A stretch of DNA of 64,000 nt from Mariniblastus sp. Lineage in GTDB: Bacteria; Planctomycetota; Planctomycetia; Pirellulales; Pirellulaceae. The notes below the pieces were generated by a model. It saw nothing but the letters and a program-made list of their open reading frames with translations, was not told where the DNA came from and ran no database searches. Each line of letters begins with the position of its first letter. Position 1 is the stretch's first letter. The translations under genes were made by a program, and so were the position numbers. The DNA lies in contig JAKVBG010000001.1 of NCBI GenBank assembly GCA_022447605.1, positions 214,072 through 278,071 on the forward strand, written 5' to 3'. Of the stretch, positions 23,334 through 36,736 are shown in pieces.

Positions 23334-24788
23334 ATGGATCTCTCCTCCTTCTCGGCCCATCAGTTGATCGATTTACTGGACCGGCAAGAACTGAGCGCGG
23401 CCGACTGCGTCGGTTATTTCCTGGCACGAACGGACGATCAAAATCCGGAACTGAATGCGTTTTTGACCGTGGCCCACGAGTCGGCCATGGATCAGGCCCG
23501 TTCGATCGACCAGCGGCGACAGCGGGGAGAAACCGTGGGGCGAATGGCCGGACTGCCCGTGGCGGTCAAAGACGGAATCTGTACAGAGGGGATCCGGACT
23601 ACGGCCGGATCGCGCATGCTGGAAGAGTTTGTCCCCTTTTACAATGCCACGGCCGTCCAGCGTCTGCTGGAAGCCGATGCCATCCTGATCGGTAAAACGA
23701 TGATGGATGAATTCGGCATGGGGAGTTCCACCGAAAACCCGCATTTTGGCAATACGCGCAACCCATGGGATCCACAGCGGGTTGCCGGTGGTTCCAGTGG
23801 CGGTTCGGCAGCCGCCGTCGCTGGCGGACTGGCCCCCCTGGCGCTGGGCTCCGATACGGGCGGCTCGATTCGCCAACCCGCCGCCTTTTGTGGCCTGACC
23901 GGTTTGAAGCCGACGTACGGCAGGGTCAGCCGTTACGGACTGATTGCCTACGCCAGCAGCCTGGAACAGATCGGGCCGATCACCCGGTCCGCTCAAGATG
24001 CCGCCCTGCTTATGGAGATCTGCGCCGGCCACGACCCGAGTGATTCAACTTCGGCCCAACGTGCCGTCGACGATTACACCCACCAGCTCGACTCCGATAT
24101 CCAGGGCCTGCGGATTGGCGTTTGCCGTGACCACTTCGGTACCGGGCTGGATTCGGAAATCGGAGTGGCCCTGCAAGAAGCACTCAACGTTTTGCAGTCT
24201 CTCGGCGCCAAGTTGGTCGATATTGAACTGCCGCACGCCTCCCATGCCGTCGCCGCCTACTACGTGATTGCGCCGTGCGAAGCGAGCGCCAACCTGGCTC
24301 GATTCGACGGGGTTCGTTACACCCGACGGGCCGAATCAAGCAGTCTGGACCAAATGTACAGCCGAACCCGCTCCGAGTTCTTTGGACAGGAAGTCAAGCG
24401 ACGGATCCTGCTCGGTACGTTCGCTCTCAGCTCCGGTTATTACGACCAGTACTACCGGAAGGCATCCCAGATCAGGCGGCTGGTAAAACACGATTTTGAC
24501 ACGGCTCTGGCAGAGGTCGACCTACTGGTCGGCCCCACGACACCTGGCACCGCCCTCCCGATTGGCCAATGGGAAGATGACCCACTATCGATGTACCTGG
24601 CAGACGTCTACACCGTGTCCGCCAACCTGGCTGGCATACCGGCCCTCTCGATCCCCTGTGGGACAGATGCCAACGGCCTACCCATCGGGATGCAACTGCA
24701 GGGTCGTCCTTTTGCTGAATCGACGCTCTTGCAGGTTGCCCACCAGTACCAGCAGCAGACCGATTTTCACACTCGGAGGCCTGACTGA
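23334..24788 (+). CDS. gatA: Asp/Glu-tRNA amidotransferase subunit A (glutaminase)
   Basis: A 484-residue amidase-signature enzyme that frees ammonia from glutamine or asparagine for the amidation of misacylated tRNA. The catalytic Lys is in AVKDGIC, and the Ser-cisSer pair lies in AGGSSGGSAAAVAGG and SDTGGSIRQPAAFCG. PTYGRVSRYGLIAYASSLEQIGPI is the conserved core. Length matches the family. It abuts gatC and overlaps gatB by one base (TGATG), so gatCAB is one coupled unit. Confidence 0.95.
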   Translation: MDLSSFSAHQLIDLLDRQELSAADCVGYFLARTDDQNPELNAFLTVAHESAMDQARSIDQRRQRGETVGRMAGLPVAVKDGICTEGIRTTAGSRMLEEFVPFYNATAVQRLLEADAILIGKTMMDEFGMGSSTENPHFGNTRNPWDPQRVAGGSSGGSAAAVAGGLAPLALGSDTGGSIRQPAAFCGLTGLKPTYGRVSRYGLIAYASSLEQIGPITRSAQDAALLMEICAGHDPSDSTSAQRAVDDYTHQLDSDIQGLRIGVCRDHFGTGLDSEIGVALQEALNVLQSLGAKLVDIELPHASHAVAAYYVIAPCEASANLARFDGVRYTRRAESSSLDQMYSRTRSEFFGQEVKRRILLGTFALSSGYYDQYYRKASQIRRLVKHDFDTALAEVDLLVGPTTPGTALPIGQWEDDPLSMYLADVYTVSANLAGIPALSIPCGTDANGLPIGMQLQGRPFAESTLLQVAHQYQQQTDFHTRRPD

Positions 24789-26257
24789 TGTCGTGCGAAA
24801 AAGCGACCATAATCGGCCTCGAAGTTCACGTGCAGCTGGACACACAAAGCAAGTTGTTTTGCGGTTGCTCCACTCGATTTGGCGCCCCACCCAACACCCA
24901 TATCTGCCCGGTCTGCCTTGGCGCGCCGGGCGCTCTGCCGGTCCTCAACCGACAGGCACTCGACCTGGCGATCCAGGTTGGGCTGGCATTGAACTGCGAA
25001 ATTGAAACGAACACGAAGTGGGACCGAAAAAACTATTTTTATCCCGATCTGCCCAAGGGTTACCAGATCAGCCAGTTCGACCGTCCCATTTGCGCCAACG
25101 GTTACCTGGACCTGATAGATCCCGAGGCCCATTTCGCCGATCGCCGGGTACAAATCGAAAGGGCTCACCTTGAGGAAGATGCAGGCAAGAGCAGCCATGA
25201 TGAAACGGGAGCGGGCGGCAGCTCGAAGATCGACCTGAATCGAGCCGGGACCCCGTTGCTGGAAATCGTCACCCGGCCCGACCTGCGGTCGGGTACGGAA
25301 GCGAAAGCATTTCTCACAGAACTCAAGCTGATCCTGTCCAATCTTCAGGTTTCCGACTGCAACATGCAGGAAGGGAGCTTGCGCGTCGATGCCAACGTCA
25401 ACCTGCATCTGGCGGAAGGGGATCGGACGATTGCCACGCCGATCGTGGAAATAAAAAACCTGAACAGTTTTCGAGCGGTTCAGCGGGCGATCGACTTTGA
25501 ATCGGAACGACAATGGAAACAGTGGCAAGAAGACGGACGGACTATCGACCAGGCAGCCAAACAGACGAGAGGCTGGGATGACGAATCGGGCCAAACCGTC
25601 CTGCAACGAACCAAGGAAGACTCGGCCGACTACCGTTACTTCCCCGAACCCGATCTGGCGGTCGTCCATACCACCGTGGAGCAACGGGAGACCATCGGGA
25701 AAAAAATTGGGCCGCTCCCTTCCCAACAACGGGCGGAACTGATTTCGGCTTATTCTCTCTCTGCCTACGATGCCGGGGTCCTGGTGCAACAGGGCAGGCG
25801 GTTTGTCGACTTTTTCGAAACGATTGCCCGCCCCCTGGACGATGGGAAACTGGTCAGCAACTGGTTGCAACAGGAAGTGTTGCGATATCTTAAAGAACAG
25901 CAGGCAGACATCGATCAGTTCCCTGTTTCAACCGAGCAATTCATTGCCTTTCTGAAACTGATCCAGTCTGGAAAACTGGATACGTCGCGAGGTAAAGCGG
26001 TCATGCAAAAAATGATGGAACAGCGACTCTCTCTCGAGGAGTCGATGGAACAACTCGGAATCGCCCCTGTCGAAGATGACGAGCTGGCGGCCATCTGCCG
26101 GCAGGTGATCGAGGAAAACCCCGACATTATCCAACAGATAAGAGAAGGGAATACCAAGGCAGTCGGAAATCTGATTGGCCAGGCCAAGCAGATCAATCGC
26201 AATGTTGATCCGGCTCTGGTACGTAAACAAATCTTAAATTTCATGAAAACAGGATAA
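24788..26257 (+). CDS. gatB: Asp/Glu-tRNA amidotransferase subunit B
   Basis: A 489-residue subunit that binds and phosphorylates the aminoacyl-tRNA before amidation. IIGLEVHVQL opens the catalytic cradle. The zinc cysteines are in LFCGC and HICPVC; PVLNRQA and YFYPDLPKGYQISQ are conserved. The C-terminal helical and YqeY tail (MEQLGIAPVEDDELAAICRQV, AVGNLIGQAMK-like) is intact. With gatC and gatA it makes the heterotrimer used where AsnRS or GlnRS is missing. Confidence 0.95.
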   Translation: MSCEKATIIGLEVHVQLDTQSKLFCGCSTRFGAPPNTHICPVCLGAPGALPVLNRQALDLAIQVGLALNCEIETNTKWDRKNYFYPDLPKGYQISQFDRPICANGYLDLIDPEAHFADRRVQIERAHLEEDAGKSSHDETGAGGSSKIDLNRAGTPLLEIVTRPDLRSGTEAKAFLTELKLILSNLQVSDCNMQEGSLRVDANVNLHLAEGDRTIATPIVEIKNLNSFRAVQRAIDFESERQWKQWQEDGRTIDQAAKQTRGWDDESGQTVLQRTKEDSADYRYFPEPDLAVVHTTVEQRETIGKKIGPLPSQQRAELISAYSLSAYDAGVLVQQGRRFVDFFETIARPLDDGKLVSNWLQQEVLRYLKEQQADIDQFPVSTEQFIAFLKLIQSGKLDTSRGKAVMQKMMEQRLSLEESMEQLGIAPVEDDELAAICRQVIEENPDIIQQIREGNTKAVGNLIGQAKQINRNVDPALVRKQILNFMKTG

Positions 26258-26386
26258 GGGTTGCAGCGACTCCGCAACGCTTCGCGATGGCTTGTGAGCT
26301 CAGCAGTTCCCGGACAAGGGCTTCCCTCAAATCAAACTTGCACGGTCTTTCAAGATTGATCAAAATGGAAGACTTCTTGACGTTAC

Positions 26387-26408
26387 GGAACATTTTCGGA
26401 ACATTTTC
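26387..26408 (+). repeat. Tandem 11-base direct repeat
   Basis: GGAACATTTTC occurs twice head to tail at 26387-26397 and 26398-26408, about 70 bases upstream of the small gene at 26480 and next to a TTGACG box (26378-26383). It could be an operator or chance. The gap 26258-26479 shows nothing else certain. Confidence 0.4.
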
Positions 26409-26479
26409 AGGCACTGCTTGTCCCGGGTTAATCAATAGCTTGGAACGCCTCTGGACAACCGATCCCGGGAGATAGACCA

Positions 26480-26767
26480 TTGCCACATTGTGTCGAGGGA
26501 AGAATTTCAGAGATCGGACCAAGTGGAAGCCTGGTGACGGACATCCTGCAAGAACAGTTGGCCGGCGCTCCGCACGATGAAAATATCTCCATCGAGTTTT
26601 CCGGACATCAGACGTTTGGACTGTTCGACCTCGACCACGACCAACCCGAATCGACCATGGTGGCCAAGATCGGTGAGAAGGGGACCGTTGAAATTGAAAT
26701 CGTCGGCCTCAGTCTCAGTGAAATGCTCGGCATCGGTGCGGGGGAAACGGTCAAGGTCTGCTGGTAA
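26480..26767 (+). CDS. Stand-alone SAM-hydrolase C-terminal-like domain protein
   Basis: A 95-residue protein. Its order VEGRISEIGPSGSLVTDI, FSGHQTFGLF, TMVAKIGEKGTVEIEIVGLS and LGIGAGETVKVCW is that of the C-terminal beta-barrel domain of the SAM hydroxide adenosyltransferase (DUF62, fluorinase-like) family. The N-terminal domain, which holds most of the active site, is absent, and no frame for it lies upstream. The enzyme activity of the full family is therefore not expected; a binding role is possible. The start is TTG 26480, with GGAG 8 bases upstream. It follows gatB by 220 bases. Confidence 0.6.
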   Translation: MPHCVEGRISEIGPSGSLVTDILQEQLAGAPHDENISIEFSGHQTFGLFDLDHDQPESTMVAKIGEKGTVEIEIVGLSLSEMLGIGAGETVKVCW

Positions 26768-26781
26768 ATCATGACCGGTTA

Positions 26782-27240
26782 CTAACGCTTGGCCTGCCTG
26801 ACCCCCTGGCCGCGCGCCTCTTTGGCCAGTCGAAACGCCTCATCCTCGCCAAACGCATCGACAGCAAAAGAGCGGGTCCGACGGCGACCGTGGCCATCGG
26901 TCCACTGGGCGACCCAGAACCAGTAATGGAACTCGTAATCACCGCGATGGTTGACCTGTTTGTGTCGCCGCACCCCGACAATTCCTGAGCGGTTGCGCGC
27001 CGAGGGATTCCGAGCCAGTTCGCTGACCGAGTATTTCGACGAGGCCTGTTCCAGGCTGTCCCGGTACTGCTTGGCTGCCAGCAATGCTTTGCGTTGACCA
27101 CCAAACTGGTTGTCAGAAAAATACTTGCTGGTCGTGCGACCGCGCCGCTGCAGTCGAACTTGCCAGCCGCCATGCACTTTCCCGGCAGCGTTTTTCGATT
27201 CCGTACGACTGATATTCCGCCTGGGATTCTTACGGGCCAC
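26782..27240 (-). CDS. AP2-like DNA-binding domain protein
   Basis: A 152-residue basic protein with two segments that resemble AP2/ERF-type beta-sheet DNA-binding domains. The first is GWQVRLQRRGRTTSKYFSD...GGQRKALLAAKQYRD, the second SGIVGVRRHK...YWFWVAQWTDGHGRRRTRSFAV...EDEAFRLAKEAR. Each has the W-x-V/A-x-W/L strand set followed by an Ala/Lys helix. Such domains occur in bacterial and phage proteins, often with homing nucleases, and in planctomycete small proteins. No nuclease motif is visible here. The start is GTG 27240. It lies 90 bases downstream of the TolR-like operon on the same strand. Confidence 0.6.
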   Translation of the reverse strand: MARKNPRRNISRTESKNAAGKVHGGWQVRLQRRGRTTSKYFSDNQFGGQRKALLAAKQYRDSLEQASSKYSVSELARNPSARNRSGIVGVRRHKQVNHRGDYEFHYWFWVAQWTDGHGRRRTRSFAVDAFGEDEAFRLAKEARGQGVRQAKR

Positions 27241-27330
27241 AGCAACTCATCGAACAGGGTGAAAATGGACCACGATCATCCGGGAGCTACCTGTCGCCAT
27301 GGGTCATCCCCAGGCCAATCTTGAAAGGGG

Positions 27331-28344
27331 TTATTGCGATGCGGCGCGGAACCCCTTGGGACCACCGGAGATCAACTTGCCGAATTGTAACGGCCAAGTC
27401 GCGATTTGAAATCCCTTTTCCCGTAACTGCTTCTTGAGGATCGAAAGGTCGTCGTACGAATCGGGGTAAACCCAGAGCGAGACCGTGGTGCGGTTCGGGT
27501 TCAGCCGTTCGATCTGGTTACCGAAGTTCGAACCGTCGGCCAGCGCGACTGTCACCTGTTCACCCGTCTGACTGGAAAGCGGCTTCAGGACAAAGTGGTC
27601 AAACTCGGTAATGCGACGATCGACGGAGCCCATCTCGGTGGGGACTTTGACCATTTTGGATGCCAACTGGTACTGCAAACGGAACTCCCCGATCGGCCCC
27701 ACGGTTTCATAGGTATTGCTGGATAACAGCAGCTTTTCGGCCTTCACCTTCCATTCCGCCTTCATCCGTTCAAGCAACGCGTCCATCGGGACAAACGTGA
27801 GACGACCACCCATCAACTGGAAGTGAACTTCTTCCGTAAACACGGTCTTAGCGATCGGCGCGGGAAAATGTTCAATCTCTTCAATACGAGCCTGCCGGCT
27901 GGCCTGAACCGCGTTGATTTTCTTGCGCGTCGAGGCAAACTGGTATTTCATGTCGTCCAATTTCGCTTCGGCCGCCAGTCGCAGGTTTTCGGCGCTGGTA
28001 TTTTCCTCGTTTCGTTTTTCCAGTTCTCGTTTCACCATCGACATTTGGACCAGCATGGCATGTCGCTGTTCCTGCAACTGGTCAACCACCGAGCAATGGG
28101 CAGCGATTTTCTGTTCCAACTCCTGATTTTCCAACTGGCGACTGCGGGCCTCCCGGGCTGCCAAGTCCAATTTTTCCTGCAAGTCCTCCACCGTTTCCTG
28201 TTGATCCGTATCCACGGTGCGATGCGTCCAGGACGACTGGGCCTGGGCGCCGACCAGGACAACCAGAATGACCAGAATGCCTACCAGGTTGGCCACGATA
28301 TCGAGGAATGAGTCCTGTCCAGCATTGAGATTGGCCGACTTCAT
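27331..28344 (-). CDS. TolR/ExbD/MotB-like protein with transmembrane aspartate
   Basis: A 337-residue protein with a single N-terminal membrane helix, SFLDIVANLVGILVILVVLVG (residues 12-32). The Asp at its start lies where ExbD, TolR and MotB carry the proton-handling aspartate. A coiled coil rich in Glu, Gln and Leu covers about residues 48-165, then a roughly 160-residue periplasmic domain with mixed strands (FTEEVHFQLMGGRLTFVP, TVSLWVYPDSYDDL). Its ATG overlaps the stop of the preceding gene (ATGA at 28341-28344). It is the last gene of a three-gene coupled operon with a channel protein and a second TolR-like protein. The exact role is unknown. Confidence 0.7.
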   Translation of the reverse strand: MKSANLNAGQDSFLDIVANLVGILVILVVLVGAQAQSSWTHRTVDTDQQETVEDLQEKLDLAAREARSRQLENQELEQKIAAHCSVVDQLQEQRHAMLVQMSMVKRELEKRNEENTSAENLRLAAEAKLDDMKYQFASTRKKINAVQASRQARIEEIEHFPAPIAKTVFTEEVHFQLMGGRLTFVPMDALLERMKAEWKVKAEKLLLSSNTYETVGPIGEFRLQYQLASKMVKVPTEMGSVDRRITEFDHFVLKPLSSQTGEQVTVALADGSNFGNQIERLNPNRTTVSLWVYPDSYDDLSILKKQLREKGFQIATWPLQFGKLISGGPKGFRAASQ

Positions 28345-29897
28345 TGCCCCGCTCCTTCGATGTCCAGGCCGCTACCCTGCAGGAGTTCAAGCAACTGTTC
28401 CATCTGGCTTTCCGCGCCCGGGGCCACAGTAAACCTGAGTTCGGGTACCCAGTAGCCATTGGCCCCCGTGACACCCCAAGAGTCGATCATTCTCCAAATC
28501 TCGTCGACCATCGTATCGACAGCCAGTACCATGTTGGTACCAACCTTGATCCGCACTCTGCGGCTCGATTGGCTTTTCGTCTCGAAGGTGATTTCTTCCC
28601 TGGAAAAATAGACCCGGATTGGACGCCGATAGCCGACCGCCCCGGCCGTCATCGATGGCAGAGCCCAATTTTTTCCGCGCTGTTGAGCCAGGCTGACCCC
28701 GCTTCCCCGGCCGCCCGTCTGGCTACCCGTTTGATCAGGCCCGCCCGCCTGTTCGGGCCCTTCCTGGTCATTGCCTGTCGCGAACATCGGTTCGTTACCC
28801 TCCGCCTGAGGCGTTCCACGATGGGCAACTTGACGTCCAGCTTGACGTCCAGCTTGGCCTAACCCTTGGCCAGATTCCATCCCCTCCGACTGGTTCACAA
28901 ATCCTCCATGTCGACGGGATGCCCGCAGGCCAGGCTTGACGGCCATCGACTCCCTCCGTCGTTCGTTCGCTGCCAGGGCCCGTCGGTATTCCATCAATTC
29001 TCTCTGCTCCCGGATCGACTCTGCCACAGCCTGCCGAATCTCCTCGGTCAACTGCGGGTCCGATTCGCCGTAAACCAATCTCTTCTTCTCGGAAACCAGC
29101 TCGTACCCAAACTCGTCATCCCAGCCTCGTATCGCATGCCGGGCCAGCGAGTACGAATCGGCGCCGTCGGGACGAACCACCAAGAGCGGGTAGGGACTGC
29201 CCTGGGAGCCATTCAGGTCGTGTCGCAGGTAATATTCCCGGACAGCCATCAAGGCGGCATCCAGCGGGTTTTTTTCGCTGACCGGGATGGCAAAATCCGG
29301 GAGATCGATGGTGATATTGTGGGGCTGGATGATCATCCTCTTGCCGCGACATTCGATATAGATCGGAATTCGCATCTCACCGCCAGACCCATCATACGGA
29401 ACGATGGAGTACATGACGGGTTGTCGATTGGACACCAGCTGCTGCTTCTGTTCCAGTTCGGTCACCGCTGCGGCCAGCCTGGATTCCCATTCCTTCAACT
29501 GCTGGTCGATCGCTTCCAGCTGGCGGTTGCCCGGTTCTTCATCCTGCCGTTCAAGTTGTCGCGCCAAAATAGCCGCCTCTTCGTTCATCCTCCTGATTTC
29601 ATTTTCCAGATGGCTCCGGATGTGCCGGACATTCTGCAAGCGTTCCACCAGTTCCGGGCGAACTTCGCTGAGACCCTCGGACCGCACCAGTTCCAGATCC
29701 AACTGCCCATTCAATTCGTCTACCCGTTTTTCGATCTGCTCAAGGTCAGCCTGATTCGCCTGCTGGGCACTCTGGTCGGCTACCTTGACCGCCAGGACCA
29801 GTAGGATAAAGAGGACGCCGAATGTGCAAATCAACACGGCGAGAAATGGAAACAGAGAAACCTCAAGGGTTTCACGGCGGCGACCTGAACGTCTCAT
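28341..29897 (-). CDS. TolR-like coiled-coil protein without transmembrane aspartate
   Basis: A 518-residue protein with one N-terminal helix, VSLFPFLAVLICTFGVLFILLVLAV (about residues 13-37). It has the TolR/ExbD topology but no acidic residue in the helix. A coiled coil follows (about residues 45-150), then a mixed domain with IPIYIECRGKRMIIQP and SPYPLLVVRPDGADSY, a Gln/Gly-rich linker near residues 335-405, and a C-terminal domain (RPIRVYFSREEITF, VPELRFTVAPGAESQMEQLL). A 12-base tandem repeat at 28829-28852 encodes part of the linker. It is coupled by ATGA overlaps to both neighbours. The two TolR-like proteins of the operon may form a heterodimer. Confidence 0.68.
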   Translation of the reverse strand: MRRSGRRRETLEVSLFPFLAVLICTFGVLFILLVLAVKVADQSAQQANQADLEQIEKRVDELNGQLDLELVRSEGLSEVRPELVERLQNVRHIRSHLENEIRRMNEEAAILARQLERQDEEPGNRQLEAIDQQLKEWESRLAAAVTELEQKQQLVSNRQPVMYSIVPYDGSGGEMRIPIYIECRGKRMIIQPHNITIDLPDFAIPVSEKNPLDAALMAVREYYLRHDLNGSQGSPYPLLVVRPDGADSYSLARHAIRGWDDEFGYELVSEKKRLVYGESDPQLTEEIRQAVAESIREQRELMEYRRALAANERRRESMAVKPGLRASRRHGGFVNQSEGMESGQGLGQAGRQAGRQVAHRGTPQAEGNEPMFATGNDQEGPEQAGGPDQTGSQTGGRGSGVSLAQQRGKNWALPSMTAGAVGYRRPIRVYFSREEITFETKSQSSRRVRIKVGTNMVLAVDTMVDEIWRMIDSWGVTGANGYWVPELRFTVAPGAESQMEQLLELLQGSGLDIEGAGQ

Positions 29898-31345
29898 GCG
29901 GTTTTGTTATTGGAGACAAACGTATCAACGGAGATAGGACGTGCACTTGATTGCCAACCGCTTGGAATGGCAGCGCTCGCCTGGTAAACAGGCAACTCAC
30001 CCCGCCGAGGGGCAGGTACGTCATCATCGGTCGTTTTCACAACTGGTTTCATATCGGAAATTGCTGAGCAAAGCGTCTGCAAGGTATCGTTAAGACGGTT
30101 TTCATCCACAACGAAACCCGTTTTCTGATTCTCGTCGCCCTGCTTTGATTGGATGTCCCGGATCTGCTCGATCAATTGGCTCAAGGACTCGGATTGACGG
30201 ACCATTTCGGCCTGCTGGCCCGCCACGGCCCGCGCATTGTCGGACAACATCACTTGCCATTGTTCCCAGCGCTTGCTCATGCATTCATCGGCGTTGACAA
30301 TGTTCTTGCCAATCGCTACCTGCAACTGGTCAACGACCTGGGAAAATGACTCTTTCAAACTGGCCGTCACCGCTTCGTTCGAATCGGAAACGGTCGTTTT
30401 CCAGGCCGCTTCGGCATCCTGAATGGTCGCCTTCCAAAGCTCGGCCTGCCGCTGCACCAACTGGTAGGAAGATGCCATGACCACCTTTCCCATCCGTTCC
30501 ATGGCGACCGTACCGGCATCGGTGGCAGGCTCCTTTTCAAAATGGCCAGCCATCTCCTGGACCACTTTCTGATCGACCATCGACAGGAGTTGGACTTCAA
30601 ACCGGTCCACCAGAAACTGGATGAACATCAATACAATTGACAAAGTCAGGGCCAAGGCGGTGGTATCAAACGCGACATACAAACTTGACCTGAGACCGCT
30701 CATCATCTGCTGGAAGTCATTCTCCGGGCCGACCTGGATACCGCCCAGGGCCTGGGAAATTCCCAGCACCGTCCCCAGGAAACCGAGCATCGGGATCGCC
30801 CAGACCAGGATACGAACCAGCGAGTAGCGCTGCTGCTGGCGTTCAATGTCGAGGTCAGCATGGTACTTCAACTCGTCTTCCACACCTTGGGTCGACTCAT
30901 TCCTTTGAATGAACTGGAGACCTTTCTCCAGGCGCTGCCACAGGTAGTGGCCATGAATTCGATTGGGATACTGGTGGAGTCGACCGAGTGAACGGGCAGC
31001 ACGCTCGGCTGTCGAATCCGTCTCCCGGTCCAGTGGTCGCCGTTGTCCCGATCCCCTGGCACCGCGGTCCGGCAGATCGGGGGAAAGGTGAACCCGATTG
31101 AATGCCCGGAATTGCTGGCCGAGGTTATCGGCGATCATCACCAGGGATGCAAAACCGATACAGAACAGCGCCAGTGTAATCTTGGATATCGGGTGGCCAG
31201 CCAAGTACCGACGAAGCGTCGGGTGCTCGATCAAATCCTGCTCGATCAAAAAGGAAATTCCCAGATACAGGGAGAGACCGAGGCAGATGGGAATCACCAG
31301 GGCCGGTAACGCCCTGGTCCAGTTGATTCTACGTTGTTGCGACAT
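29894..31345 (-). CDS. MotA/TolQ/ExbB-type proton channel protein with long C-terminal tail
   Basis: A 483-residue membrane protein. Helices 1 and 2 lie at about residues 12-34 (LVIPICLGLSLYLGISFL) and 52-73 (ITLALFCIGFASLVMIA). Helix 3 holds IPMLGFLGTVLGI and helix 4 FDTTALALTLSIVLMF, the two conserved MotA/ExbB segments. After them comes a tail of over 200 residues with helical, Gln/Glu-rich character (QRQAELWKATIQDAEAAW, EMVRQSESLSQLIEQIRDIQ), longer than in TolQ or ExbB. It overlaps the next gene by ATGA. ATG 31345 was chosen; an upstream start at 31435 has no family support. It is expected to form the proton path and drive the TolR-like partners. Confidence 0.78.
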   Translation of the reverse strand: MSQQRRINWTRALPALVIPICLGLSLYLGISFLIEQDLIEHPTLRRYLAGHPISKITLALFCIGFASLVMIADNLGQQFRAFNRVHLSPDLPDRGARGSGQRRPLDRETDSTAERAARSLGRLHQYPNRIHGHYLWQRLEKGLQFIQRNESTQGVEDELKYHADLDIERQQQRYSLVRILVWAIPMLGFLGTVLGISQALGGIQVGPENDFQQMMSGLRSSLYVAFDTTALALTLSIVLMFIQFLVDRFEVQLLSMVDQKVVQEMAGHFEKEPATDAGTVAMERMGKVVMASSYQLVQRQAELWKATIQDAEAAWKTTVSDSNEAVTASLKESFSQVVDQLQVAIGKNIVNADECMSKRWEQWQVMLSDNARAVAGQQAEMVRQSESLSQLIEQIRDIQSKQGDENQKTGFVVDENRLNDTLQTLCSAISDMKPVVKTTDDDVPAPRRGELPVYQASAAIPSGWQSSARPISVDTFVSNNKTA

Positions 31346-31721
31346 TCCGCCGAATCCACAATTTGGCTCATACGCTGCTGTTGCGCAGCATGGCCGATGC
31401 GACAACAGCAGCGGACCATCTCGTTCATCGACCAAATTGCCCAGCCAGTTAACTCAATTTCACCCAAAAAGTGAAATTAACCCTCGTAGATTACCCAGTC
31501 CCTACTTTGGTTATTCTCGTCAAGATTTGCCAAAGTATTCTCCGGAACAGTGCCGATAACAACCTGCAGATTCAAATGAAGGTGTCGCAGCAATGCGATA
31601 TCCCAGGGGGGTAACCCGGCGGTATTGGCAACAATCGGCCGGGTTTTTTTATACCCTGCTGGCAAACGACCCCGCCTGGTAACTATGCTGGTGGAGTCCA
31701 GTTGTTCGCCGGTGGATCTGC
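31346..31721. promoter_or_regulatory. Divergent region with palindrome and internal terminator
   Basis: This 376-base gap lies between the channel operon (minus) and the prenyltransferase gene (plus). AATTTCAC (31456-31463) and GTGAAATT (31471-31478) form a perfect 8-bp inverted repeat. A Rho-independent terminator at 31613-31650 lies on the plus strand upstream of the prenyltransferase gene, where no coding frame precedes it. A small RNA or an attenuated leader would explain it. No known riboswitch family is recognised. Confidence 0.5.
31613..31650 (+). terminator. Rho-independent terminator in leader of prenyltransferase gene
   Basis: AACCCGGC (31613-31620) pairs with GCCGGGTT (31638-31645) over a 17-base loop, followed by a T run. 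It lies about 70 bases upstream of the start at 31722, so it would act as an attenuator or end a short upstream RNA. Confidence 0.7.
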
Positions 31722-32669
31722 ATGTCAACGACCGATACCTCAATTTCCCGGGACAACCATCTGTTGCCCTGGTTGCAACTGCTGCGGATCTCGGCAGCGC
31801 CCACCGCAATCTCCAATATCCTGGTCGGGTTCCTGCTGGTCCATGGAAGCTGGGAACCGGTCGTCCCCCTGATCCTGCTGATGACGTCCAGCTTCTTCCT
31901 CTATTCGGCCGGTATGGTTTCCAATGATATCGTCGACGTTTCCACCGACCGCGAAGATCAACGGCACCGGCCGATCGCCGATGGACGGGTCGGGATCGGG
32001 GCGGCGCGATGGGCCTGCATCGGAATGTTCCTGTTGGGTACCCTCTGTGGGGCAGCGGTGGGCAGTCGCTCGCTACTCATCGCGTTGCTCTTGACGCTCA
32101 CGATTCTGCTCTACAACGGACCACTCAAGCGGACCTGGGCCGGGCCTGTCGCTATGGGTTTATGCCGCAGCCTGAACGTGCTGCTGGGTGCCAGTTTCCT
32201 GCAAGACTCGGTCACTGCCCCAAACGCTTGGCTCGGCTGGCCACCGTCGGTCTGGTGGGTCGCGATCAGTCTGGGCATCCTGATCACCGGTTTGACCTGT
32301 TTCGCCAGGAGCGAGGCCAGGCCCGAAAGCCGCAGGCCGTTGATCGTGGGAGCCGCCATCATCGTGTTGGGGCTGGCCGGTTTTGCTACGACTGTGTTGA
32401 CCAGCACTGATTCGGGCAAGCTGGAACGCATCTTCCCTTTGCTGATCCTCCTGCTCTCGGCTCCCGTCGCGACCCGCCTCCTGTTGGCCATCCGCTCATG
32501 CCGGCCACGGCAGGTGCAATTTGCCGTGATTTCCTTACTGAAAAGCCTGATCATTTACGATGCGTCGATCTGTCTGCTATTCGGTCAGCCCAATTTTTTC
32601 TATGCCCTAATCGTCCTGTCCCTGTTGCTGCCCTGTCTGCTGCTGGGCAAGTGGATATCGTCGACCTGA
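31722..32669 (+). CDS. UbiA-family prenyltransferase, EboC-like
   Basis: A 315-residue integral membrane protein of the UbiA superfamily, with eight or nine helices. The first acidic motif is NDIVDVSTDREDQRHRPIADG, the N-D-x2-D-x3-D-x4-R-P core that binds prenyl diphosphate through magnesium. The second acidic motif usually found between later helices is weak here. The gene order with a TIM-barrel protein and an EboF-like phosphodiesterase suggests the EboC branch rather than menaquinone or haem O synthesis. The start ATG 31722 follows a leader with a terminator hairpin. The native acceptor is unknown. Confidence 0.82.
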   Translation: MSTTDTSISRDNHLLPWLQLLRISAAPTAISNILVGFLLVHGSWEPVVPLILLMTSSFFLYSAGMVSNDIVDVSTDREDQRHRPIADGRVGIGAARWACIGMFLLGTLCGAAVGSRSLLIALLLTLTILLYNGPLKRTWAGPVAMGLCRSLNVLLGASFLQDSVTAPNAWLGWPPSVWWVAISLGILITGLTCFARSEARPESRRPLIVGAAIIVLGLAGFATTVLTSTDSGKLERIFPLLILLLSAPVATRLLLAIRSCRPRQVQFAVISLLKSLIIYDASICLLFGQPNFFYALIVLSLLLPCLLLGKWISST

Positions 32670-32793
32670 GTGATCTCCCGTTTGAAAAAATGGGTACGGC
32701 GCTTCAGGCCAATTGATTTTTGGCCGCAATGATTCATCATGGAGGTCCAGAGAAAGAGGATACTACCCGGGAAGTCGATACAGTTTTTCATTC

Positions 32794-33648
32794 ATGAAAT
32801 TGGGATATAACACGAACGGCCTGGCGCACCACGAGCCTGTCCAGGCCTTGGAGATGTTGGCCGAAATTGGCTATCGGAGCGTGGCCATCACGATCGATCA
32901 CGCCTGGCTCGCCCCCTTGCATGACCAGCGGGACAGCCAATTGCGGGAAATCCGGGATTGCCTCGCTTCCCACAAAATGGACTGTGTCGTGGAATCGGGG
33001 GCCCGCTTCCTGCTGGACCCTTACCGAAAACATTACCCAACACTACTCGACCCCGACCAGGCGATCGCTGCCAAGCGGGTCGAATTCCTCAAGTACTGTA
33101 TCGATACGGCCGTGGAACTGAAGGCCGATTGCGTTTCGATCTGGTCCGGCCAGAAACCGGAAGGGATAGAAGATCAACAGGCCCTCGACACGCTCGCCGA
33201 AAATCTGGCCGGGGTGCTCCAGCATGCCGAACAACAGAACATGGAGATCGGGTTCGAACCGGAACCGGACATGTTCATTGACACGATGAAGAGCTACGAG
33301 CGCCTGTTGGAATGGATTGATTCACCCCGTCTCGGTTTGACACTCGACATTGGCCACCTGTTCTGCATGGGCGAGTTGCCGATCGTCGACTTCATCCAAC
33401 GCTGGCAGGATCGAATCCTGAATGTCCATATCGAAGATATGCGGGCCGGGATCCACGAACACCTGATGTTCGGAGAAGGGCAAATCTATTTCCCTCCCAT
33501 CCTCCAGTCGTTGATGGAAATCGGTTACACCGGCGGCCTGCACGTCGAGTTGAGCCGACACAGCCATGATGCCTTTAACATCGCCCGGCAGTCTTTCGAT
33601 TTCCTGGCCAACACGATTAGTGAATTACCGTCGTTGCCAGAAAGTTGA
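32794..33648 (+). CDS. TIM-barrel sugar phosphate isomerase/epimerase family protein
   Basis: A 284-residue soluble protein of the xylose isomerase-like TIM-barrel (AP endonuclease 2) superfamily. MKLGYNTNGL, AEIGYRSVAITID, the metal-site stretch IGFEPEPDMFI, LTLDIGHLFCMGE and the closing NVHIEDMRAG and HEHLMFGEG blocks carry the expected Glu, Asp and His ligands. ATG 32794 starts at the first strand of the barrel; an earlier TTG at 32713 has no family support. It lies about 120 bases after the prenyltransferase and 5 bases before the phosphodiesterase, so the three look like one unit. The substrate is unknown. Confidence 0.82.
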   Translation: MKLGYNTNGLAHHEPVQALEMLAEIGYRSVAITIDHAWLAPLHDQRDSQLREIRDCLASHKMDCVVESGARFLLDPYRKHYPTLLDPDQAIAAKRVEFLKYCIDTAVELKADCVSIWSGQKPEGIEDQQALDTLAENLAGVLQHAEQQNMEIGFEPEPDMFIDTMKSYERLLEWIDSPRLGLTLDIGHLFCMGELPIVDFIQRWQDRILNVHIEDMRAGIHEHLMFGEGQIYFPPILQSLMEIGYTGGLHVELSRHSHDAFNIARQSFDFLANTISELPSLPES

Positions 33649-33653
33649 ACGCC

Positions 33654-34976
33654 ATGGCTTCCAAGGTCATCCTGTTAACCGTCCCGGCACTGAGGGTTTC
33701 GGACCTGAAAAACATGCCCAGGTTGAAATCACTTGTTGACCAGGGTAGCCAGGCCCGGATTCAACACTCGTTCCCGGCCGTCACCTGGCCAGCCCAAGCC
33801 AACCTGCTGACCGGCCAGACACCGGAACAACACGGCGTCATCGCCAACGGCTTTTACTGGCGAGAGGAAAAGCGCGTCGAAATGTGGACCGCCTGGAACG
33901 AAGTGATTGAATCACCTCAAATCTGGGATCGGCTGCCACAAATTGACCCGAACCTGAAATCGGCCGCCTGGTTCCCGATGCTGAGCAAGGGGTGCGGTGC
34001 CGATTACGTCTGCATGCCCGCCCCGATTCACCAGGAGGACGGGAGTGAGGACCTCTGGTGCTATACCAAGCCGCAGCCGTTTTACGGTGAACTGCTCGAG
34101 TCGATGGGCCATTTCCCGCTGCAGCACTTCTGGGGACCCATGGCCAATATTCAATCGAGCCAGTGGATTGCCGACTCTGCCGCACTCGCTTTTGAGCGTT
34201 ATCAACCGGACTTTTTCTATATCTATCTGCCGCACCTCGATTACGCGGCGCAGAAAACGGGCCCCGATAGCCCAGCCGCCCTGACGGCAGTCGAGGAACT
34301 GGACCAGGTGATCGGGGGACTGGCCGAGAAAATCCTGGCGGCCCACGAATCGGTAACCTGGCTGGTCGCCAGTGAATACGTGATCACGCCGGTCGACCAC
34401 GTCAGTTACCCGAATCGCATCCTCCGCGAAGCGGGCCTGTTGCAGGTGCGCCAACAGGATGACGGGGAACATCTCGATTTGGCCGGCAGCGCCGCCTGGG
34501 CGATGGTCGACCACCAGTTCTCACACGTGTTTGTGAAAGACTCCGAACCGGCCATCATCGATCGCGTCAAGGATCTGTTCCAGGGAGAAGCGGGGATCGG
34601 CCAGGTGCTGGCCTTGCAGGAGCGTCAACAACTGCAGATGAACCATGAGCGGAGCGGGGAAGTCATCCTGGTTTCAACTCCCAACAGTTGGCAGGCGTAC
34701 TACTGGTGGCTGGACGACGCCCGGGCACCCGGCTTTGCTCGCACGGTCGATATCCATCGCAAACCGGGTTACGATCCGGTGGAATTGCACTTTGACCGGG
34801 AGACCAAATCGATCCCGCTCGATGCCAGCCTGGTGCGCGGGTCGCATGGGGCGCCGGCCGTCTCGCTGGAACAACAGGGAGTCGTCTTGAGTTCCTGCCC
34901 GGATCTGTTGACGGGCGACCCAATCGCGGAAACCGATCTCTGCGACCTGGTCCTGGGGTTGTTTCGGCAGGCCTGA
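33654..34976 (+). CDS. Alkaline phosphatase/nucleotide pyrophosphatase family protein, EboF-like
   Basis: A 440-residue phosphodiesterase-fold protein. The nucleophile block is FPAVTWPAQANLLTGQTPEQHGVIANGFYW, with the Thr as the likely nucleophile; YIYLPHLDYAAQKTGP and TPVDHVSYPN carry further metal ligands. The Asp normally near the N-terminus (in a DGL-type turn) is missing, as LLTVPALRVSD stands there. This is also my recollection of EboF proteins. No signal peptide. ATG 33654 was chosen; a TTG at 33645 would overlap the upstream stop. It forms a tight unit with the TIM-barrel gene. Confidence 0.78.
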   Translation: MASKVILLTVPALRVSDLKNMPRLKSLVDQGSQARIQHSFPAVTWPAQANLLTGQTPEQHGVIANGFYWREEKRVEMWTAWNEVIESPQIWDRLPQIDPNLKSAAWFPMLSKGCGADYVCMPAPIHQEDGSEDLWCYTKPQPFYGELLESMGHFPLQHFWGPMANIQSSQWIADSAALAFERYQPDFFYIYLPHLDYAAQKTGPDSPAALTAVEELDQVIGGLAEKILAAHESVTWLVASEYVITPVDHVSYPNRILREAGLLQVRQQDDGEHLDLAGSAAWAMVDHQFSHVFVKDSEPAIIDRVKDLFQGEAGIGQVLALQERQQLQMNHERSGEVILVSTPNSWQAYYWWLDDARAPGFARTVDIHRKPGYDPVELHFDRETKSIPLDASLVRGSHGAPAVSLEQQGVVLSSCPDLLTGDPIAETDLCDLVLGLFRQA

Positions 34977-34997
34977 ACATGTCGCTCAAGACGAACG

Positions 34998-36527
34998 TCA
35001 GGGACCGATCAATTCACAATCGGTTTCGGAAAAGACATCGTACAAGTCGTAGAACTTGTCTTCACTGATCCCTGTAAACGAAACGTTCAGGTATTTCAGT
35101 TTCTTTAATTGCTTCAGTGTCTCGACCGATTGGTCCGTGATGCCGGTCGAACCGAGGTGTACCCAGTCCAGGTCGTTCATCGCGGGTAATTGCTTGACGG
35201 CCGCATCGGTAATTTTGGTCTTATCCAGATTCAGCCAGTGCAGCTTGGGCAATTCGGTCAACTGGGCAACCACGTCGTCACCCACTTTGGTATCCCACAA
35301 GTTCAATTGGGAGAGATTACCCATCTTGGCCAACGAGGGTCCAGCCGCATCGGTCACGCCCGGGGAATTCGTCTCGCTCAGGTCGAGCTTGGCCAGGTTG
35401 GGAAGTTTCGTCAACGAAGCAATACCGGCATCCGAGACCTTCGTGTCTCTCAAATTCATGGTGACCATGTCGGGCATCCCCGCCAGGACCTTCATCGCCG
35501 GATCGCCCACCTGGGTTCGGAACAGGTAGATTTCCTTCAAGTTCAGACCCGCCAGTTTTTCGATCCCCGCATCGGTCACCGCCGTGTCGTTGAGACCGAG
35601 GACTTTCAGCCCTTTCATCTGGGCAACTGATTCCATTCCCGCATCGGTAATCTGGGGACCCCAGACCTTGAGGAACGTGAGACGGGGCAACCCCTTGAGG
35701 GATTGCAAACCAGCATCACTGACACGGTTGCAATCCATCAGGTCGAGGGCCCGAATCGTTTCGGAATCCTGCAAGTGACGCAGCGCCTCGTCGCTGATCC
35801 GGGTCTGGCCACAGCGGACCTGCTGCAGGTTTGGAATCTGGGCGATGAACTCAAAGGCCTCGTCACTGACATCGGAGCGAAAGAGCTGCAGGAAGGTCAG
35901 GTTTTCGAGCGACGTCAAGTGCGACAGCGACTCGGCTGTGGCCGGGGACTGTTCCAGACCCAGGTTTTCCAACGACCCGATCTGGCCTAACAACTTGAAC
36001 GTGTCGAGATCGACCTGGGTTCCATTCAAGGAGAGATGCGTCAGGCCGGGCAGGCCCTTCAATTGCTCGACCAGCGCGTTGTCATGCGTCGCGATGCTCA
36101 GGTCGACCTGCCAGACTTCGCCCGCGTCATTGACCGAAACATAACCGTCCACCGCCTCGATCTGTTCGATCAGCGCGGTCTGTTGCTCGGCAGAGAGGGC
36201 CGCTGGTTTACCCGCGTCCGGATCGGCCGAAGTCGTATCACTCGTATCACTCGAATCGGTCGAAACGCCGTTCGCTTTGAGCGCCTTGATCTGCTGCTCC
36301 AGCTGCTGGATCCTGGCCTCCAGTTCCTCGTGCTGGGCCGTATTGGAACCTTCCCCCAGTTCATCCATCCGGGTCTCCAGCTGCTTCAGCTTCTTCTTCA
36401 TGATCAGCGGCTCGTAATCGGTCGTCTCACAACCGACCGACAGAGCAAGGCCCAAGCCGAACAGCAGGATCAGTGGCCAGCCAGGGCACATATCAAGGGC
36501 GCGCTGTGAGAAACGAGAATGAGGCAT
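34998..36527 (-). CDS. Leucine-rich repeat lipoprotein with coiled-coil stem
   Basis: A 509-residue protein. PGWPLILLFGLGLALSVGC gives a signal peptide with a lipobox ending at Cys 33 or so. A coiled coil follows (LKQLETRMDELGEG, HEELEARIQQLEQQIKALK), then a Ser/Thr/Asp linker (STDSSDTSDTTS). From about residue 150 to the end there are around 14 leucine-rich repeats of the type L-x2-L-x-L-x2-T-x-VTDAG-x2-x-L, as in TDAGMESVAQMKGLKVLGLNDTAV. Such repeats mediate binding; no enzyme motif is present. ATG 36527 was chosen; ATG 36491 is an alternative. It is a single gene, convergent with the phosphodiesterase. Confidence 0.75.
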   Translation of the reverse strand: MPHSRFSQRALDMCPGWPLILLFGLGLALSVGCETTDYEPLIMKKKLKQLETRMDELGEGSNTAQHEELEARIQQLEQQIKALKANGVSTDSSDTSDTTSADPDAGKPAALSAEQQTALIEQIEAVDGYVSVNDAGEVWQVDLSIATHDNALVEQLKGLPGLTHLSLNGTQVDLDTFKLLGQIGSLENLGLEQSPATAESLSHLTSLENLTFLQLFRSDVSDEAFEFIAQIPNLQQVRCGQTRISDEALRHLQDSETIRALDLMDCNRVSDAGLQSLKGLPRLTFLKVWGPQITDAGMESVAQMKGLKVLGLNDTAVTDAGIEKLAGLNLKEIYLFRTQVGDPAMKVLAGMPDMVTMNLRDTKVSDAGIASLTKLPNLAKLDLSETNSPGVTDAAGPSLAKMGNLSQLNLWDTKVGDDVVAQLTELPKLHWLNLDKTKITDAAVKQLPAMNDLDWVHLGSTGITDQSVETLKQLKKLKYLNVSFTGISEDKFYDLYDVFSETDCELIGP

Positions 36528-36736
36528 ACTGGCAATCCGCAAAGGGTTCAGGGGAACAAGGTTTGGATCCCACGTACCGGCCGCACGTGTTCCATTTATT
36601 AACGTATTACAACCCGATTTTTTTTCAATTCTAACTTGAATAAATCGGCAGGTTTGAACCGTTTTGCCCGGAATCATCGGCAAAACAGGAACCGGACGAA
36701 CCGGATCCGCACAACCGACTGGTCTGGCAAAATAGC

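Follow-up and report, generated by a model that had tools for sequence, protein, structure and literature searches.

The window, by which we mean the whole 64,000-nucleotide stretch of Mariniblastus sp. DNA analysed here, carries three minus-strand genes (M, A, and B) that run into one another. These genes, their junctions, the gene downstream of them, and a second operon of the same kind elsewhere in the genome are as follows.

29894..31345, minus strand: M, a MotA/TolQ/ExbB-family channel subunit of 483 aa (open reading frame and PF01618 match)
28341..29897, minus strand: A, an Asp-less axle-like partner of 518 aa, no Pfam family over cut-off
27331..28344, minus strand: B, an Asp-bearing axle-like partner of 337 aa, no Pfam family over cut-off
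29894..29897, minus strand: ATGA overlap of the M stop and the A start
28341..28344, minus strand: ATGA overlap of the A stop and the B start
26782-27240, same strand as the operon: AP2-domain gene (PF00847), downstream of B
L036:1708-5024: second M-A-B operon of the same genome, A without Asp (SLFPFLSI), B with Asp (DSLLDT)

An earlier note, made from the letters of the sequence, had described a MotA/ExbB-type channel gene translationally coupled to two different partners, and the three frames lie at the place it named, with ATGA at both junctions. Operons of the second type in two other genomes (L148 and L160) likewise have A without and B with the Asp. Other second-type loci are less complete, with M and A only in L149 and, in a scan, B without M or A in L159 and L161.

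M matches PF01618 (MotA_ExbB) over residues 139-250 (E 1.3e-12; 48 bits against a cut-off of 22.9). The 233 residues behind this match agree with the tail of over 200 residues that had been proposed. When the M family profile is searched against the PDB, solved ExbB and TolQ chains appear at E 0.0009-0.02, ranked below helical matches to the M tail. The pore motifs in the window are GFLGTV and AFDTTALAL, i.e., the GxxGTV stretch and the conserved Thr of the last pore helix; residues P185, G188, G191, T192, V193, and T229 are invariant among 29 aligned M. Residue D227, positioned two residues ahead of the conserved Thr (AFDTT), is present in 147 of 151 aligned M, and four ExbB of the window genome have Leu, Ile, or Val at this place. 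Such a channel-borne acid recalls Glu49 of GldL.

The membrane helix of B, DSFLDIVANLVGILVIL, contains Asp11 and Asp15. The helix of A, SLFPFLAVLICTFGVLFIL, contains no acid between Glu12 and residue 38, so that the Asp is confined to one partner helix as the note had it. The AlphaFold2 model of B has its membrane helix at residues 10-37, followed by a long helix (46-148) and by a domain at 171 to 327. In the A model, helices 16-120 and 126-158 precede two domains, at 175-318 and 403-514, which a low-confidence stretch (340-398) joins. Both models place domains behind a long helix, in accordance with the proposed long coiled coils and large periplasmic domains. Profile-profile alignment (hhalign) relates A to B across the helix and the coiled coil with a probability of 97% and E 8.4e-11, a score partly owed to the coiled coils. 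In this alignment, B-Asp15 lands on A-Ala20.

Neither partner could be placed in a Pfam family. Up to E 1, the Pfam matches of A and B include neither ExbD/TolR (PF02472) nor the peptidoglycan-binding OmpA/MotB family. PF02472 is also absent among the best 25 of 83 families for 48 A relatives and the best 25 of 69 for 53 B relatives, and a profile of nine ExbD proteins from the window genome does not align with A or B (hhalign E 0.17 and 0.28). We therefore reject membership of ExbD/TolR or MotB by sequence; the label 'TolR-like' given earlier holds for the layout and fails for the family. Searched against the PDB with Foldseek, neither model gives a match at E 0.001. For A, the top-ranked structures were a yeast CKM chain (E 0.007) and, from E 0.008 up, chains that we take from their names to be ribosomal protein uS11; we do not count them as a finding. 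The PDB sequence matches of A and B fall within the coiled-coil stretch. The closest named relatives of B come from Mariniblastus MAGs (77 and 67% identity). As a control, the window genome encodes ten ExbD genes of PF02472 (L245-L254), of which eight form four tandem pairs, each made up of two different genes. All ten keep the Asp, indicating that an asymmetry of the A type is not general.

The model of A, with a helix, a long helical stretch, a low-confidence linker, and a C-terminal domain, has a plan that we take to be like that of TolA. A could then be the force transducer, lying outside an M pentamer that holds a B homodimer with two Asp, as TonB and TolA do. The missing Asp of A would suit this role, and other transducers adjoin tolR-like gene pairs (PMC12204202). 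Against it, the A helix aligns with the B helix and lacks the His that the available text of PMC12204202 names for transducer helices. We regard this arrangement as unlikely, although it is the alternative to which we give most weight.

B is present in 60 of 60 genomes searched in the genus, family, and order. Of 198 genomes from the class, 158 have it at E 1e-6, and in 147 genomes drawn from the phylum, matches outside the class are weak (E 8.7e-8 or worse). The order set comprises 59 loci, one for every genus, family, or order genome searched except the window's own. A adjoins B in 56 of them, and the other three are contig ends. M adjoins A in 50, in 44 of which the four-base overlap is identical; the six loci with A and without an adjoining M are three contig ends and three genomes with another channel type. 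The A site is Ala in 51 and Asp in three of 54 readable order loci, and the Asp of B is present in 56/56 pairs.

A similar picture is found farther out in the class, where 40 further loci were chosen, 30 of them outside the family f86. A adjoins B in 29 of these 30 (the miss is a contig end), with Ala in 24, Thr in three, and Ser in two of the 29 readable A sites and the B Asp in the same 29. Another 80 loci were fetched by a pattern that includes the Asp of B and are therefore not counted for that Asp; their A site is Ala in 71, Thr in two, unreadable in six, and absent in one. Among 24 genomes searched for A, all 15 with B have A, and eight of nine without B are also without A; in the ninth (G380), a contig end cuts through A. 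The outcome named earlier as counting against the heterodimer, the two partners lying apart, was not seen in the order loci. The pairing of A with B is ancient, and the comparison across genomes points to A and B functioning as a matched pair.

In six of six loci of family f87 (L121-L126), the membrane helix of B contains an Arg (VVGIIxR). Two f87 genomes without A and B (L157:5707-7221 and L156:1356-2951) have an M-like gene near a protein whose helix, SMWMLDVFCCALGCVTLL, has an A-like look and carries an Asp.

The linker between the helix and the periplasmic domain measures 155 to 297 residues in A and 139 to 291 residues in B, and the two lengths are correlated (r 0.90 over 155 loci with both anchors found, which include 72 of the B-Asp-pattern set, some sharing genomes with others, and one f86 row, L118, with an unsure anchor). 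With duplicates removed, independent contrasts give r 0.87 for 128 unique pairs, and 0.48 without the 20 strongest contrasts. Control contrasts for the second linker of A and the domain of B range from -0.09 to 0.13, and the M tail control gives 0.02 and 0.04 raw (116 loci). Matched linkers are predicted by a strut in which A and B lie side by side, and also by AA and BB homodimers that span one periplasm.

In family f86, M adjoins A-B in none of the ten fetched loci (L111-L120). The periplasmic part of A is recognised in nine of these loci and that of B in all ten, and A and B are adjacent in eight. The helix motifs FPFLAV (A) and DSFLD (B) are gone; L117 and L120 keep the NLVGLL part of B, with Gly at the Asp place. 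Loss of the motifs where no M adjoins fits a B Asp that is needed only with M. More distant M proteins occur elsewhere in f86 genomes (E 1.6e-24 to 1.1e-36). The f86 linkers were looked at in nine loci with unsure anchors, and we claim no covariation there. In L151:2838-3590 and L153:2453-3220 of this family, a separate M-like gene precedes a partner whose helix, GEDSFVAVVVTKLTG, contains a Lys and has Ala where the Asp would be.

These observations bear on a second alternative, that A and B form separate AA and BB homodimers, each with M, the AA-M complex being non-conducting or regulatory. A and B are translated in sequence, both could dimerise through their coiled coils, and the width of the periplasm could account for the matched linkers. 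However, separate homodimers do not lead one to expect that A and B are missing together (the eight of nine genomes above) or that they stay adjacent in f86 loci without M alongside, and the known proton site would be unavailable to a homodimer without the Asp. We consider this alternative quite improbable.

In three order genomes the A site is Asp, and in none of the three does M precede A: it is located elsewhere in G054 and G037 and is reversed in G053. All three have a variant channel, M2, which forms a clade of M with a support of 1.0. M2 has His in GTVxHFG, for the Gly of the GTVxG stretch, and Asn in AFN, for the Asp before the conserved Thr. Searching 197 order genomes for M2 gives 16 strong matches (E <1e-100), 128 weak matches (E 1e-45 to 1e-30), and 53 genomes with no match. 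Thirteen new M2 genomes were selected in the order by their M, with A still unread. Their A site is Asp in 11, Glu in one, and Ser in one (G387). In seven sister control genomes with weak M2 matches the site is Ala in six and Gly in one, with no acid, and in 30 further weak-match genomes it is Ala in 27, Gly in one, Ser in one, and unreadable in one.

On one tree, an acid is present in 15 of 16 M2 genomes and in none of the 117 others that were readable (for some of these M was not read directly: L074 and L125 end before M, and the seven sisters were classed by the M2 search). The corresponding Fisher value, 6.6e-19, assumes that genomes are independent and should not be read literally. Parsimony on the same tree gives six changes of acid state and seven of M2, and the count of independent gains is approximate because branch support is weak (0.11, 0.33) for some M2-bearing A. 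Wherever A has gained an acid, it sits at the Asp position of B, which again argues against A as a transducer outside the pore.

Outside the order the association is looser. Among 297 class genomes, 22 match M2 at E 1e-55, comprising five of the order, two with ordinary M (G207 and G259), and 15 others, of which 11 had A read (all except G515, G545, G560, and G568). In G358, G376, and G535, M2 adjoins A-B and A has Asp. In G322, G335, G355, G361, and G364, M2 lies elsewhere, no ordinary M was found, and A has Ala. In G350, G370, and G214, M adjoins A (with ordinary motifs in G350 and G370, and not recognised by the pattern in G214), M2 lies elsewhere, and A has Ala. Ten f21 genomes chosen with ordinary M adjoining A have Ala in 10/10.

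Altogether, 24 M2 genomes showed no ordinary M next to A (an absence taken from the M2 search in G392, G393, G399, G451, G461, and G465); A carries an acid in 18 of these 24 and in 0 of 130 others (117 + 10 + 3). The acid in A is associated with M2, and all 18 acid-bearing A are from M2 genomes. A rule from M2 to an acidic A held in the order (15 of 16) and failed in the five M2 genomes outside it; we keep it as an association. The six M2 genomes with a neutral A, these five and G387, indicate that M2 does not force the acid. In genus g283, which accounts for four of the 24 M2 genomes, a second, degenerate M adjoins A, as seen for G457 and G451, and in the g283 loci L297 and L399 M2 lies about 2 kb from A.

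The exchange of Asp227 for Asn in M2, where A is usually acidic, also bears on a third alternative, in which the proton site is on the channel, as with GldL Glu49, which is required and protonatable (PMC8986121); B-Asp15 would then be structural, and A and B need not be equivalent. Its conservation across the family, set against the aliphatic residues of the ExbB proteins from the same genome, means that Asp227 might be a working proton site, which counts against reading B-Asp15 as the only one. On the other side, the M of G405, G412, G414, and G421 is without Asp227 and A there is still Ala, which led us to drop a simple transfer of the acid from M to A; B-Asp15 is kept in every pair of the order set. 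Of the alternatives, we hold this to be the least credible, with a small chance of being right.

Drawing on the operon, the paired inheritance, the aligned site, the matched linkers, and the association of the acid in A with M2, all obtained by computation, we infer that M, A, and B form a 5:1:1 ion-driven motor with a hetero-axle in which B-Asp15 is the sole proton acid, a reading that we consider somewhat better than an even bet. Five M would surround an axle of one A and one B, both helices sharing one pore. B-Asp15 would take and release the proton as the only proton-carrying acid on the axle, and A-Ala20, at the matching place, would act as a permanently neutral site, like a protonated Asp. 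A and B would run side by side into the periplasm as a parallel strut of matched length, and their differing periplasmic domains would act on a target there. With one loaded site, a turn would cost about five protons instead of ten. In M2 lineages, the acid usually back in A would make a two-site motor. The motif loss in f86 and the repeated asymmetry of the second operon also speak for this reading. The heterodimer proposed in the earlier note is favoured, indirectly and in part, by the matched linkers, the alignment of Asp15 with Ala20, and the restriction of acidic A to M2 genomes, with B homodimers and A elsewhere as a less probable alternative. We put forward more tentatively, at slightly less than an even chance, the wider claim that the motor is 5:1:1 across the class, its hetero-axle being obligate and bearing a single proton site, and that some lineages switch between one-site and two-site axles along with a change of channel.

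The flanking genes point to no target for the A-B strut. The eight neighbours in 23334-36683 are of unrelated kinds (Pfam types Amidase, GatB, SAM_HAT_C (weak), AP2, UbiA, AP_endonuc_2, Phosphodiest, and LRR), and a relative, by sequence likeness, of the AP2-domain gene of the window, which lies downstream in 26 of 79 B-Asp-pattern loci, is the same-strand neighbour seen most often. A word search of the main text of a paper on gene essentiality in Planctopirus limnophila (PMC10632474) returned none of six gene terms.

If the 5:1:1 reading is true, a one-acid motor has been kept across much of the class, with the second acid restored along with a changed channel in some lineages. M and M2 lineages would be natural matched pairs for measuring the proton cost per turn. 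Two questions are touched, the ability of a 5:2 motor to turn with a single axle acid and that of unlike partners to occupy the same pore.

ExbD or TolR is present in its motor as two copies of one protein with a small periplasmic domain. The M-A-B system resembles ExbB-ExbD and TolQ-TolR in that M belongs to the same Pfam family and the acid of B lies early in a single N-terminal helix, and differs in that its two partners are unlike each other, have long coiled coils, and carry domains for which Foldseek gives no match at E 0.001.

PADLOC gives weak matches to Zorya proteins (M to ZorA1 at 1.3e-6, B and A to ZorB1 at 0.0011 and 0.0066), and M shares with ZorA a long channel tail. None of the eight neighbours in 23334-36683 has a PADLOC match at E 0.01, and a Zorya defence motor was rejected on both grounds. 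ZorA-ZorB is a 5:2 complex (PMC11890865), from which the present system also differs by its two unlike partners.

In the PVC group, a tolQ-like gene occurs with pairs of unlike tolR-like genes beside TPR and vWA genes (PMC12204202). The combination of a tolQ-like gene with two unlike partners is common to both; unlike those clusters, the eight window neighbours have no TPR or vWA Pfam match at E 1e-4, and the available text of PMC12204202 does not mention loss of the Asp in one partner. Among the literature matches listed, from a library poor in subscription papers, none describes an M-A-B operon or an Asp-less partner.

GldL-GldM is a 5:2-type motor with a long periplasmic shaft formed by one self-dimerising protein (PMC9389320), and GldL has a conserved acid, Glu49, in a membrane helix (PMC8986121). 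M-A-B would share with it the 5:2-type plan and the long shaft, and has a channel subunit that likewise carries a conserved membrane-helix acid. The two unlike shaft proteins are particular to M-A-B, and an axle Asp is not part of the GldLM mechanism as described in these sources.

A close parallel in plan is AglRQS of Myxococcus xanthus, in which one MotA-like subunit and two different single-helix partners are likewise encoded in one cluster. AglQ and AglS are both MotB homologues with a helix aspartate (PMC9389320; also PMC3169522 and PMC9120999), and whether they form a heterodimer or homodimers is stated as unknown in PMC9389320. Both match PF02472 (PMC3169522), unlike A and B, neither of which does. 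The two-partner plan is already known from AglRQS, and what M-A-B adds to it is a partner, A, without the Asp.
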